From Alphaproteobacteria bacterium (GTDB lineage Bacteria; Pseudomonadota; Alphaproteobacteria; RF32; CAG-239), in contig JAFUSU010000005.1 of NCBI GenBank assembly GCA_017467515.1, forward strand, positions 1 to 64,000: 64,000 nt of DNA, given 5' to 3'. The notes below the pieces were generated by a model, which ran no database searches, was not told where the DNA came from, and was given only the letters and a program-made list of their open reading frames with translations. Made by a program: the position numbers and the translations under genes. Shown here in pieces: positions 216 to 38,952 of the stretch (its first letter is position 1; every line of letters begins with the position of its first letter).

Positions 216-244
216 GTTATATGCCAACGGTTTTCTAAAGTCAA
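216..244 (-). promoter_or_regulatory. rRNA operon promoter
   Basis: On the minus strand a -35 box TTGACT (239-244) and a -10 box TATAAC (216-221) are separated by exactly 17 bp. A GC-rich stretch (CACCGC...) follows where the discriminator and transcription start should be. The 5' end of 16S rRNA lies about 200 bases downstream, and the leader between them (18-215) has no coding potential. This is one of the best sigma70-type promoters in the window. Confidence 0.8.
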
Positions 245-512
245 CACCTTTTTTCAAAAAAAATTAAAAAAAAGTGCAATTTTTTTTCTGACATTAATTA
301 ACTGATTGATAATCATAGAAAATAAGTTCTAATTTTTTTTGAACAAGCTGTCTAAAATAATAGATTATTAATAAAATAGCATATATACTGACAGCTAATT
401 ATATAGAAAATTCGCTGATAGATTCGCATATCGGCATAAAATATGCTTGCGTTCTAAAACAGATATATTATATATAAGAATCGTTTGGATTAATTTTTTA
501 AAGGAGGCTACC
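245..512 (+). other. AT-rich divergent spacer and infC leader
   Basis: Very AT-rich stretch between the rrn promoter (leftward) and infC (rightward). It probably contains the infC promoter and the UP-element-like A/T tracts of the rrn promoter (about 250-290). An in-frame ATG at 447 is open to infC but has no ribosome binding site and adds 22 residues not typical of IF3, so I treat it as leader. No single promoter could be chosen confidently for infC. Confidence 0.5.
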
Positions 513-1049
513 ATAGCTAAAGAGGATACCAATGCGCCGGTACGCACTGATGACGGACCCCGCATTAATGAAGACATTAGAGTCAAAGAAGTTCGATTAA
601 TTGATGAAACAGGTGAAAACAGAGGCATTATGCCGATTAAAGAGGCACTCGCCCTCGCTGAAGAAGCCGATTTAGATTTGATAGAGATTTCACCGCAGGC
701 AAATCCGCCGGTTTGTAAAATTCTCGACTATGGTAAGTATAAATACGAAGTTCAAAAACGTAAGAATGAAGCCAAGAAAAATCAAAAAATTGTTGAAACG
801 AAAGAATTAAAATTGCGCCCGATGATTGACACGCACGATTACGAGGTCAAAATCAAACAGGCCAAGAAATTTTTAAGCCAAGGCAATAAAGTTAAATTCA
901 CAATGCGTTTTAAAGGGCGTGAAGCCTCTAGCGATATGGGTTTAAAAGTTTTGCAAAACATTTTAGATGATTTGGAATCTCTGATTAAAATCGATGCCGA
1001 ACCTAAAATGGAAGGCCGTCAAATGACAATGATTGTGTCACCGAACTAG
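513..1049 (+). CDS. infC: Translation initiation factor IF-3
   Basis: IF-3 binds the 30S subunit, checks the start codon and initiator tRNA, and prevents premature 50S joining. The 178-residue product has the usual two-domain layout: an N-terminal domain with GPRINEDIR and EVRLIDETGENRGI, a PPVCKILDYGKYKYE linker and a C-terminal domain starting near EIKELKLRP-like residues. The start is placed at ATA (513-515) because a perfect AAGGAGG lies at 501-507, five bases before it, and the next residues (AKEDTNAPV) match a normal IF-3 N-terminus. The upstream in-frame ATG at 447 has no ribosome binding site. Non-AUG starts in infC are a known autoregulatory device: AUU in Escherichia coli is discriminated against by IF-3 itself. 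A terminator follows directly, and rpmI/rplT are not downstream. Confidence 0.93.
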   Translation: MAKEDTNAPVRTDDGPRINEDIRVKEVRLIDETGENRGIMPIKEALALAEEADLDLIEISPQANPPVCKILDYGKYKYEVQKRKNEAKKNQKIVETKELKLRPMIDTHDYEVKIKQAKKFLSQGNKVKFTMRFKGREASSDMGLKVLQNILDDLESLIKIDAEPKMEGRQMTMIVSPN

Positions 1050-1072
1050 GAAAGGAATAAAATCTTTTCCTC

Positions 1073-1098
1073 AAACAGCCCGAAAGGGCTGTTTTTTT
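1073..1098 (+). terminator. infC intrinsic terminator
   Basis: Nine-base arms AAACAGCCC / GGGCTGTTT around a GAAA tetraloop, followed by a T run, 24 bases after the infC stop codon. A textbook rho-independent terminator. Confidence 0.9.
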
Positions 1099-1181
1099 AT
1101 TTCAACAACTCTCACATTTCCCTAGCCGAAAGAGAAAAGTAGGAGTATATATATCAATAGGTGTCATACACCGCTTTTCCC

Positions 1182-1300
1182 GTCATTCCGGCCTCCGAGC
1201 CGGCTACGAAGTGAGCAAGCAGCGACGCTGTCGCGCTCCATCCAATTTTAAAAGTAGCCTTATTTCTATGGATTGTCGGGTCAAGCCCGACAATGACAGT
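1182..1300. repeat. Composite intergenic palindromic repeat
   Basis: Starts with TCATTCCGGCCTCCGAGCCGG (GGCTCGGAGGCC-type palindrome) and ends with a second palindrome, GATTGTCGGG...CCCGACAATGACAG, at about 1270-1298. The first unit recurs in reverse at 6251-6275 and forward at 24849-24871. It fills most of the 315-base infC-ligA gap and does not look coding. A dispersed short repeat family of this genome. Confidence 0.7.
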
Positions 1301-1362
1301 AAAAATAATTTTTAAACTCACCCTACCCTCTCTTAAAATTAAAAGAGGGAACAAATGGATAA

Positions 1363-3442
<2,080 letters not shown>

Positions 3443-3444
<2 letters not shown>

Positions 3445-3486
3445 AAAAACCTTTGATGACTGTTAAGTCAATCAAAGGTTTTTTTA
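3443..3486. terminator. Bidirectional terminator, ligA / orphan gene
   Basis: Arms AAAAAACCTTTGAT and ATCAAAGGTTTTTT enclose GAC...GTC and a short GTTAA-containing loop, with A/T tracts on both sides, so it can end transcription of ligA (+) and of the convergent gene at 3487-4023 (-). Its upper stem and loop are nearly the same as those of the terminator at 5399-5446, with a paired G-C to A-T change. Confidence 0.85.
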
Positions 3487-4023
3487 TCATTTCGCAAGAT
3501 AATGCGAGATACATAAGCGAACAAGCTCTGATTTCTTGATGTTCTCGGCACCAAGTTGATCGGGCACACCATTCATCACATCAAAAAGAAGGGCGCTGAC
3601 CATCTCGATAGAAAAAAGATTTTCTGTTCCCCAGAAATCTTTACGAACTTCTACATCCGTGAAAGTTGGAGAGAACTTCTCATCAAAACAACCATACCCA
3701 AGTCCGGACTTACGCCCACAAGCGCAATCCATCATACCACGAATAATGAGCACATGGAATCCCTGCTCGAGAAGATTTTTGGCCTTTTCAAGCACAATGA
3801 AAAAATCTTCCGCCTCAACTATTCCATACTCTATCAGGGTTTTCAGTTGAATCGGAAATTCTTTTGTCTTGAGAATTTCCTGACATAGCCGAGAAACTTT
3901 CTGCTCTTTCTCCATAAGCTTATGAAAAGAAAGCTGATTCATTCCGTAGCGTGGTGCAAGACGACTGTTTTCGCGCACCTCAATGGCATCAGTATCCGCC
4001 ATTTCTACAACAATTTTTTTCAT
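3487..4023 (-). CDS. Orphan hypothetical protein, paralogue of 5444-5989
   Basis: A 178-residue soluble protein of unknown function with no signal peptide and no motif I recognise. It is a diverged paralogue of the protein at 5444-5989: both have RYG near residues 15-30, a leucine-rich helical middle, a GLS/GLGYG-like stretch, and a conserved RK(D/E)(F/L)WGTE followed by a helical C-terminus ending near residue 180. The two genes also share the leader sequence GTGGCAyTAAAAA before ATG, a similar promoter and a similar terminator. This one has a CACG segment (DCACGRKSGLGYGC) with three cysteines that the paralogue lacks. It has no clear Shine-Dalgarno sequence. It is its own transcription unit inserted between housekeeping genes. 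Confidence 0.75.
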   Translation of the reverse strand: MKKIVVEMADTDAIEVRENSRLAPRYGMNQLSFHKLMEKEQKVSRLCQEILKTKEFPIQLKTLIEYGIVEAEDFFIVLEKAKNLLEQGFHVLIIRGMMDCACGRKSGLGYGCFDEKFSPTFTDVEVRKDFWGTENLFSIEMVSALLFDVMNGVPDQLGAENIKKSELVRLCISHYLAK

Positions 4024-36990: not shown

Positions 36991-37113
36991 ATTAAAAAAA
37001 CAAAGCATTGAGCGCTATGAAAAAAAATTAAAAAGTACAATAAACACACTTTTGTCTTTGTTCCTATTTTGTTTATAATTCATAAATATTCATATACAGA
37101 GCAAGGAATTGCT

Positions 37114-37389
37114 ATGAAAGTATTGATTGAAACGATTGCTAGCCACAGAGGTTATAAATTTTTTGAAAATTGTGAGGAGATGGATGCTTATTTGGGAAGA
37201 CATTGCGGCAAAATCAAGATAAATACAAATGTAGCAGATTTCTGCTCGTATTGTTTCAATATAAATTTCATCAAAAGGGCGGCATGTCCCAGTGTGCTGC
37301 TTTTTGTTATATCCGCCCAGCGAAAAGCCTCGCCCCACCGAATTTCCGTTTTTCCTTTGATTTTGTTATCCGTTAATCTGACCTTCTGA
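37114..37389 (+). CDS. Small hypothetical protein of the MKVLIETI family (copy 3, perhaps degraded)
   Basis: 91 codons from ATG 37114 (AAGGAAT upstream). The first ~45 residues (MKVLIETIASHRGYKFFENC, then EEMDAYLGRHCGKIKINT) look protein-like. The rest is unlike a folded domain and may come from a frameshift. It is the longest of three copies of the same gene start in this region, the others stopping after 13-17 codons. No known family. Upstream region differs from copies 1 and 2 beyond about 20 bases. Confidence 0.45.
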   Translation: MKVLIETIASHRGYKFFENCEEMDAYLGRHCGKIKINTNVADFCSYCFNINFIKRAACPSVLLFVISAQRKASPHRISVFPLILLSVNLTF

Positions 37390-37630
37390 ATTTATACGAG
37401 TCATTTCTCATCAATATTATTTTCTTTAGTAATTGCGGATTTTATTTTTGCTTTAAGTTATCCGAATCAGTTATCCTTAATTCATCAGGAAATTACTTTG
37501 GTTTTCTATTTTAATTCCAGACAAAAATTGCTCTATTATAATATATATTTTCTTTCTATTTTAATTATATTATAGGCGCAAAAAATTACCCTTTAGCCCT
37601 TATTTCATAAGGGGTTTGAAAATTAAAAGG
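37390..37630. other. AT-rich spacer, no gene seen
   Basis: Very AT-rich with short direct repeats TTTCTATTTTAATT (37510 and 37555 areas). No coding potential and no dispersed-family repeat. Together with the iterons that follow it has the look of a replication or regulatory region. Confidence 0.45.
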
Positions 37631-37717
37631 CGGATATAAATGCCTCCCAAACCGGATATACGTGCCAAAAACCTCAAAAATCCGGATATAGATGCCAAGG
37701 GGGCGGATATAAATGCC
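37631..37717. repeat. Four iteron-like repeats CGGATATAnrTGCC
   Basis: Units at 37631-37644, 37653-37666, 37683-37696 and 37704-37717, all in the same orientation. Starts are spaced 22, 30 and 21 bp, about 2, 3 and 2 helical turns, so all lie on one DNA face. They end 53 bases before the ATG of the winged-helix protein at 37771. Such arrays act as operators or as replication-initiator iterons. Confidence 0.75.
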
Positions 37718-37770
37718 AAAGCCTTATTTTCCCTGATAAATAATTATAGGAATTTATTAAAGGAAACAAT

Positions 37771-38448
37771 ATGAGTAGAAGTAAAGCAGAATTGTCTGTT
37801 ACAGAAAGATTAATCATACAATTAGTTATCTATCGCACTAAAAATCCAAAACATCCGACATTCTTCGGAGATAATAAAAACATCGCCAAATGTATTGACG
37901 TTCAGCCTGATACCGCTAGAAAGGCAATCGCTAAACTTGTTAAGCTGGAATATTTACAATTGGGCTATGATAAGCAAGGACGCCGTCATTTGCTTTATTC
38001 GGGAAAACCATTTACTCCAATTATAGCTAATATGAATAATATTGATAAAAAGCTCTTAAGAAACAATAAGGAATATTATGAAATGAGTTTCAAAGATGCC
38101 CAGCATGAGTTGGAATCGGCTAAAATCCGTATAGAAACGTTGGAAAGAAAAACAAGCGAGTTACATAGCAAACTACTTGGCAGTGATTTGAAGGCTAGTA
38201 AACTTGGTCTCTTTCTTCAAAATCTTGGTTATTCTAAAGAACAAATTGATAAGATAGAACAGCAATCTTTTGAAAGTTTTGAGAAAGCAGAAGTTTCCCA
38301 AATTTCGCAATCTCAAGAAATACCGCAGGATAAACCAATTACGGCAAAAATTTCAACTGAAATGAATGAAAACAACAATGATGCAATCGATGTACTTGCT
38401 GAAATACTTGAGAAATTCAAAATTCCAAGCACTTCTTCAGTGAACTAG
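37771..38448 (+). CDS. Winged-helix/coiled-coil DNA-binding protein
   Basis: 225 residues. The N-terminus (about 8-75: VTERLIIQLVIYRTKN, NIAKCIDVQPDTARKAIAKLVKLEYLQLGYDKQGRRHL) is a helix-turn-helix of the HTH_36 type found in plasmid/phage replication proteins and in regulators. A coiled coil follows (about 95-140) and then a Gln/Glu/Pro-rich tail. AAAGGA before ATG. Iterons lie immediately upstream, so it is either an autoregulator or a replication/partition protein of a mobile element. No catalytic Rep motif is visible. Confidence 0.7.
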   Translation: MSRSKAELSVTERLIIQLVIYRTKNPKHPTFFGDNKNIAKCIDVQPDTARKAIAKLVKLEYLQLGYDKQGRRHLLYSGKPFTPIIANMNNIDKKLLRNNKEYYEMSFKDAQHELESAKIRIETLERKTSELHSKLLGSDLKASKLGLFLQNLGYSKEQIDKIEQQSFESFEKAEVSQISQSQEIPQDKPITAKISTEMNENNNDAIDVLAEILEKFKIPSTSSVN

Positions 38449-38590
38449 AAAATTCACGCTTGCAAAATAAGCTATTTTGTGCTGAACAGCTGATATCTCA
38501 ACTGGAAAACCTGCTTTAGGCTCAGAGTTGCAGCAAAGAGCAGGTTGACTAGATGATTAAGCAAACACAACAACTTCAGGAGGCGGCATA
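38449..38590 (+). other. Remnant coding-like sequence
   Basis: One frame reads NSRLQNKLFCAEQLISQLENLL, stop, then AQSCSKEQVD, stop, then MIKQTQQLQEAA, stop. Coiled-coil composition interrupted by stop codons suggests a decayed gene or short leader peptides. The last mini-frame overlaps the AGGAGG and ATG of the next gene. Confidence 0.3.
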
Positions 38591-38784: not shown

Positions 38785-38952
38785 CTAAAAGTCATCAATA
38801 TCATCGCCAGAAGCACCGTTGAAATACATATCTTCAAATTCCTTGTCTGCTTTTTTCTGGCGATGCTGTATTGTTTGCTTTGGCTCAGAACTACTGCTTC
38901 CGAACATCATCCAAACAACAATCCCTATGACTATTAAAACTATTACGGCCAT
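38785..38952 (-). CDS. 55-residue single-span membrane protein after dndA
   Basis: MAVIVLIVIGIVVWMMFGSS (helix 2-18), then a polar basic stretch (KQTIQHRQKKADKEFEDMYF) and an acidic tail ending DDIDDF. AAAGGAAAATA precedes the ATG with good spacing. It starts 21 bases after the dndA stop on the same strand, so it may be the last gene of the dnd operon. N-terminus would be anchored with the charged tail in the cytoplasm. No family known; too short for confident homology. It may equally be a flanking chromosomal gene. Confidence 0.6.
   Translation of the reverse strand: MAVIVLIVIGIVVWMMFGSSSSEPKQTIQHRQKKADKEFEDMYFNGASGDDIDDF

Follow-up and report, generated by a model that had tools for sequence, protein, structure and literature searches.

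A probable iteron-based replication-control module with a same-strand small RNA at the left border of an alphaproteobacterial defence island

The stretch of DNA analysed here (the window) comprises the first 64,000 nucleotides of contig JAFUSU010000005.1 of a rumen alphaproteobacterium (assembly GCA_017467515.1) and includes the left border of a large defence island. At this border, positions 37215-38448 contain an ordered series of parts: a small-RNA gene, AT-rich 11-bp direct repeats, an inverted repeat, phased direct repeats (iterons), a -10-like box and a gene for a winged-helix protein. We consider that they probably form a replication-control module, wherein an iteron origin and its initiator are subject to antisense-type RNA control, and which originates from integrative elements that carry defence systems. 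A role in replication is suggested by this anatomy and by the similarity of the protein family to phage O-like and DnaD-like proteins. An earlier note on this DNA had described four of the repeats, the AT-rich tract and the winged-helix gene; the small-RNA gene (37218-37305), the conserved core that extends up to the iterons and the loss of two iterons are additional to that description. The parts of the module are the following:

37218-37225, + strand: GATAAATA, promoter-like -10 box of the small-RNA gene (alignment A2)
37231-37305, + strand: predicted small RNA of ~75 nt (promoter-like box, intrinsic terminator)
37306-37628, no strand: conserved non-coding, origin-like core (81-87% identity to L043/L047; motifs common across subfamilies)
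37505, 37532 and 37555 (span 37505-37565), + strand: AT-rich direct repeats TCTATTWTAAT, resembling a DNA unwinding element (DUE) by sequence criterion
37597-37613, no strand: inverted repeat CCCTTAT-TTC-ATAAGGG between the AT-rich tract and the iterons (from sequence; a similar one in other subfamilies)
37631-37644, + strand: iteron 1, the third of the ancestral six (repeat CGGATATAnnTGCC, alignment A2)
37653-37666, + strand: iteron 2 (repeat CGGATATAnnTGCC)
37683-37696, + strand: iteron 3 (repeat CGGATATAnnTGCC)
37704-37717, + strand: iteron 4, adjoining the -35 position of the winged-helix promoter (judged by its position relative to GATAAATA at 37735)
37735-37742, + strand: GATAAATA, promoter-like -10 box of the winged-helix gene (invariant in alignment A2)
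37750-37780, + strand: predicted small-RNA target, i.e., leader, ribosome-binding site and start codon of the winged-helix mRNA (repeat pair I4, duplex predictions)
37771-38448, + strand: winged-helix/coiled-coil protein of 225 amino acids (aa), the proposed iteron-binding Rep-like initiator (AlphaFold, homologues, PHROG)

The four iterons of the window all lie 5' of the ATG at 37771 and are spaced by 22, 30 and 21 bp, as first reported in the earlier note; the genome scan and randomised windows place this array far above chance. The iteron core GGATATANNTGCC has no further exact match within the 64-kb window, two lone exact matches outside the window in the 1.67-Mb genome and none in 20 first-order randomised windows. 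Exact iterons are also absent from the remaining part of the window's contig, and therefore none is located 5' of the cargo operon. Alignment A2 reveals a 44-bp gap in the window array, corresponding to the first two of six ancestral iterons. Among 30 loci, 24 have six iterons at intervals of 22-22-22-30/31-(20/21 or 30-32) bp, near whole helical turns; another family of the class is represented among them. This spacing is near-constant although the iteron sequence itself differs between subfamilies, which exhibit CGGATATAnnTGCC, GGAAATA-n4-TTTCC dyads, CATTATTTRATT, GAATATTCATT or GAACATA. Judged from sequence, such a phased array of direct repeats beside a rep-like gene is consistent with an iteron-type origin.

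The AT-rich tract 5' of the iterons is likewise as first described, and contains three TCTATTWTAAT repeats, the sole such cluster in the genome. Most homologous loci contain 2-3 copies, vs ~0.1 expected, and the AT-rich DNA with its short direct repeats may represent an unwinding region. The same ordered parts, with a GATAAATA-like box before the gene, are found across distant subfamilies. Among six close loci, conservation starts abruptly at the GATAAATA box at 37218 and extends through the gene (alignment A2). The window copy is itself a mosaic, its core (37306-37770) being closest to L047 (87%) and its coding part (37771-38040) closest to L043 (92%); conservation of the core is consequently no clean test of selection. 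The motifs ATAAATA/GATAAAT are ~5-fold enriched 5' of open reading frames (ORFs) in this and related genomes, and CCTGATAAATA emerges as an enriched promoter-like motif in these Alphaproteobacteria, with no clear -35 element in the loci read. For GATAAATA at the left edge, a role as element end or as recombinase core was considered and discarded, since the motif is generally enriched 5' of ORFs.

The predicted small RNA terminates in a hairpin (37274-37305) followed by a T run, and a terminator with a differing stem is found at the same place in 13 representative loci. Its stretch 37240-37269 is complementary to the start of the winged-helix mRNA, and duplex prediction gives a pairing of -35.7 kcal/mol vs a shuffled mean of -12.6 (sd 3.1). 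Among 169 ORF starts on the contig, the winged-helix start is the best target (-37.6, compared to -30.5 for the next best). Over 23 related loci, pairing averages -24.5 with the RNA's own target and -16.4 with the targets of other subfamilies; the own target ranks first in 14 of these loci and second or third in six. RNA and target change in a coordinated manner, the pairing being retained through their divergence in all but one subfamily. In L044 and L076, an insertion parts the small RNA from the core while complementarity is preserved, which argues for a separate trans-acting RNA. The predicted pairing therefore points, with one subfamily excepted, to an RNA complementary to the leader and ribosome-binding site of a rep-like mRNA. 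In that subfamily (L093, L094 and L095), a small transcription unit upstream retains its box and terminator despite the absence of start-region complementarity. A countertranscribed RNA would be expected on the strand opposite its target, whereas this one is encoded on the same strand, ~530 bp upstream, a distant placement that requires complementarity to be maintained by coordinated change. The search of Rfam yielded no match.

The AlphaFold model of the 225-aa protein contains one winged helix, rather than the two winged-helix domains of RepE-type initiators, followed by a long coiled coil (93-151); most blocks of the winged helix have a predicted local distance difference test (pLDDT) score of 84-93. 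Both structural parts named in the earlier note are thus present, while its assignment to HTH_36 falls below the Pfam cut-off for the window copy alone; HTH_36 matches 16 of the 17 family members (best 4.8e-8). Of the 17 members, 15 match phrog_345, annotated as 'replication initiation O-like' (E up to 0.1, best 3.1e-5), nine the DnaD-like helicase-loader family phrog_186 and 12 another replication-initiation family. The family would accordingly appear, by profile, to possess an O-like N-terminal domain. The sole PHROG match of the window protein is phrog_8102 (E 0.041), and its C-terminus is longer than, and differs from, those of its relatives. Sequence-profile searches of solved structures gave weak matches only.

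By profile search, the protein is present in 33 of the 152 genomes of the host family, spread over nine of its 16 genera, and in two more genomes, from another family, among 385 searched across the class; its close relatives were found solely in rumen and gut alphaproteobacterial assemblies. Such a sporadic distribution fits an accessory element. The relatives usually have the gene in convergent orientation to a variable defence block composed of type I restriction-modification (RM), BREX, DpnII with a DndB-like protein, type III RM, DISARM-like or Mza-like proteins; overall, Dnd, BREX and type I, II and III RM systems occur beside the module. Frequent neighbours include ankyrin genes as well as a small tyrosine recombinase and a serine resolvase.

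Two relatives carry the module within integrative elements that have attachment repeats. The island of G087 begins with a putative tyrosine integrase, a 503-aa ORF beside rpsI (both genes recognised by eye), and is bounded on both sides by an imperfect direct repeat, 92 bp in length, of the 3' end of rpsI. Its sister genome G086 lacks a 23.3-kb block of this island, module included, and has the flanks joined. The second element, in G156, spans 28.7 kb between copies of a 17-bp repeat derived from the 3' end of tRNA-Gln; it contains the module, BREX genes and an integrase of 618 aa, the family of which was assigned from its 96%-identical homologue in L043. Of the two origins proposed in the earlier note, a plasmid or an integrative element, the latter finds good support in these two relatives and in the varied defence cargo beside the module in most others; the former found no backing in the database and circularity searches described below.

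Two further features of the relatives were noted. Near the small tyrosine recombinase gene, the sequences AAATGTYAAA-N12-TTTRACATTT and AAATGTYAAA-N23-TTTRACATTT occur ~60 bp apart (L043:2018-2155, L101:3098-3234, L103:175-309 and others; coordinates of minus-strand loci are element-oriented). This paired inverted repeat looks like a lox/res-type recombination site, and is absent from the window's genome. In L113 (element-oriented, 219-3830), a pair of ORFs of 96 and 466 aa is repeated ~1.9 kb apart beside the element, and the ORF lengths suggest a tandem duplication.

If the module functions as we propose, the winged-helix protein would bind the phased iterons and, when present in sufficient amount, would help to open the adjacent AT-rich repeats and so allow the excised element to replicate. 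Binding beside its own promoter would also render the gene autoregulated. The small RNA, a same-strand transcript originating at the left edge, would pair with the leader, ribosome-binding site and start codon, repress translation and keep the protein at a low level, such that the module would be almost silent in the integrated state.

Several results weigh against a function in replication under RNA control. The PHROG matches cover the winged-helix, i.e., DNA-binding, domain. Foldseek/VIA searches gave generic winged helices of the MarR/LexA type as the nearest solved folds; no known initiator is prominent among the solved structures listed there, which in itself excludes nothing. In two subfamilies the proteins comprise only ~135 aa; they stop behind the coiled coil and show no obvious domain for helicase recruitment. 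No DnaA box resembling TTATNCACA (up to one mismatch) is common to the loci, although TTATNCACA may not be the host's own box and not all plasmids need one. The small RNA of subfamily L093-L095 (three loci) shows no pairing to the start region, and the target ranks from the 23 related loci are not independent, so that their p-value of 6e-8 is no formal test. Searches of PLSDB, phage records and viral contigs, with members of two subfamilies or a profile and at the sensitivities used, gave no match, thus providing no instance of the module on a plasmid, and none of the small contigs checked for circular ends was circular. Finally, copies of the same iteron class are co-resident in three genomes, and incompatibility is therefore not evident.

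The immediate surroundings of the window copy were assessed together with its island. The fall in G+C proposed for the left border is indeed observed, from ~0.39 to 0.27-0.37 from 37 kb on. The neighbouring features are:

37069-37214, + strand: 5' remnant of an element-associated 104-aa gene, ~34 codons (ATG 37114) with upstream DNA (137 bp, 83% identity)
38499-38558, + strand: remnant of the ancestral 3' end of the winged-helix gene (75-77% DNA match to L042/L044; C-terminal profile match with stops)
38785-38952, - strand: small conserved predicted protein of 55 aa, between the winged-helix gene and the cargo (91% to L046, 71% to L047)
38974-63952, - strand: defence cargo, DndA/SspA, DndE, DndD, DndC, DndB, Dpd-like H/F/E, DrmB and DrmA (Pfam, PADLOC)

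Beyond the window, the cargo continues on C28 up to ~74.5 kb with type III RM and then a RhuM-like gene. The island is a mosaic of DndAEDCB, Dpd-like H/F/E, DrmB/DrmA-like, type III RM and RhuM-like genes, of which the Dpd-like and Drm-like block may constitute a hybrid system. A full-length copy of the 104-aa gene lies past both window and island, at C28:74640-74954. The island is consequently flanked by a 137-bp, 83%-identical direct duplication, truncated on the left (37069-37214) and complete on the right (C28:74606-74954). The 104-aa gene was considered as an integration target; this was dropped because the gene represents an element-associated family (F4) that occurs in 10 loci. In G000, several small serine resolvase genes are located at or near the ends of contigs (at the ends of C2, C3, C20, C25 and C35, and in C4), which suggests repeated elements that break the assembly.

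The search for attachment repeats around the window's own island yielded none that could be assigned to it, the sole flanking direct repeat being the gene duplication described above, and no integrase, recombination site or clear element ends were found. No relative was found with the gene and repeats at the same site without the island, an arrangement that would have spoken against an arrival of the two together. Homologues of the two island-flanking genes were sought in 11 relatives and none were found, such that no empty site could be looked for there.

The truncated left neighbour and the differing C-terminus indicate that the window copy may be a rearranged remnant, in keeping with the loss of two iterons and the lack of an integrase nearby. 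It is possible, if somewhat doubtful, that the copy has become a non-functional fossil, its left end truncated after recombination, which now merely marks the border. The loss of exactly two iterons (44 bp), the remnant of the old 3' end behind an altered C-terminus, the truncated neighbouring gene and the missing integrase, recombination site and attachment repeats would all be explained. The reading frame, small RNA, target and promoter boxes, however, are intact and still complementary. This possibility is compatible with a replication-control function in the family as a whole.

It is unlikely, in our view, that the module is instead a regulatory switch, whereby an autoregulated transcription factor of the element would govern excision, immunity to a second copy or element genes, with the iterons as its operator and the small RNA setting its level. 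The small size of the winged-helix proteins (just 135 aa in some members), the transcription repressors among their closest solved folds and the last iteron adjoining the gene's own -10 box are all in line with such a factor. Yet no exact iteron is found elsewhere in the window or contig, as would be needed for control of the cargo operon, and an operator leaves the six rigidly spaced sites, the conserved AT-rich repeats and the inverted repeat unexplained.

The iterons might also serve as a centromere bound by an autoregulated winged-helix/coiled-coil protein, in the manner of TubR or of pSK1 Par, a one-protein partition system. This we regard as quite improbable: upstream phased repeats and autoregulation match centromere-binding proteins (PMC5016525), the model combines a winged helix with a coiled coil and phage TubR is among the structural matches, but no motor NTPase gene is common to the loci and a centromere needs neither DUE-like repeats nor antisense-type control.

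Returning to replication control, we can entertain as a serious possibility, though short of a probable one, that the loci represent an undescribed family of integrative elements specialised in interchangeable defence systems, with a six-iteron origin of fixed geometry and a same-strand small RNA that co-evolves with the ribosome-binding site of the initiator and sets compatibility or immunity groups between elements. In any event, a concrete and testable module for mobility or replication can be linked to the left border of this large island. Since the same module accompanies BREX, Dnd and type I, II and III restriction systems as well as other cargo, it offers a handle on the movement of defence islands in uncultured gut Alphaproteobacteria. 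A small RNA that is separated from its target, yet stays complementary to it while both of them change, is an unusual layout for replication control, and one that can be tested by simple reporters.

Among known systems, a precedent for an origin within an integrated island is provided by SGI1, which possesses its own rep gene and an iteron-based oriV with AT-rich repeats (PMC7433901). In contrast to the module described here, the initiators named in that source are of the RepA_C or replicase/PriCT-1 type and rep is activated by a helper plasmid; its text, as searched, makes no use of the word 'antisense'. The iteron plasmids F, P1, RK2, R6K and pPS10 contain four to seven iterons, an AT-rich DUE with short direct repeats and a winged-helix initiator (PMC4980987), and thus resemble the module in array geometry, AT-rich repeats and the adjacent winged-helix gene; with the antisense-type RNA added, these traits liken the module to an iteron origin and its initiator. 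They differ in that RepE has two winged-helix domains, as opposed to one with a coiled coil; the module moreover lacks a common DnaA box, and its iterons are dyad-like in several subfamilies. The phage O-like and DnaD-like proteins are related through profile matches (phrog_345 in 15 of 17 members, phrog_186 in 9 of 17), but the similarity resides in the winged-helix domain, the module proteins are shorter, with no recognisable helicase-loader gene in the vicinity.

With respect to RNA control, the nearest functional parallel found is the c4 RNA of phages P1/P7, which is likewise of the antisense type; it controls immunity, binds around a ribosome-binding site and has an antirepressor as its target (PMC12197685). 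The likeness is one of function, and the module RNA ends at a terminator of its own, well ahead of the target gene. Like the countertranscribed RNAs of the ColE2/RepA-PFP type, which are encoded opposite their target and retain their terminator stem through compensated changes (PMC5304414), the module RNA is complementary to a rep mRNA leader and has a compensated terminator stem; unlike them, it forms a separate unit upstream. This predicted same-strand control RNA is the feature that distinguishes the module from known iteron origins.
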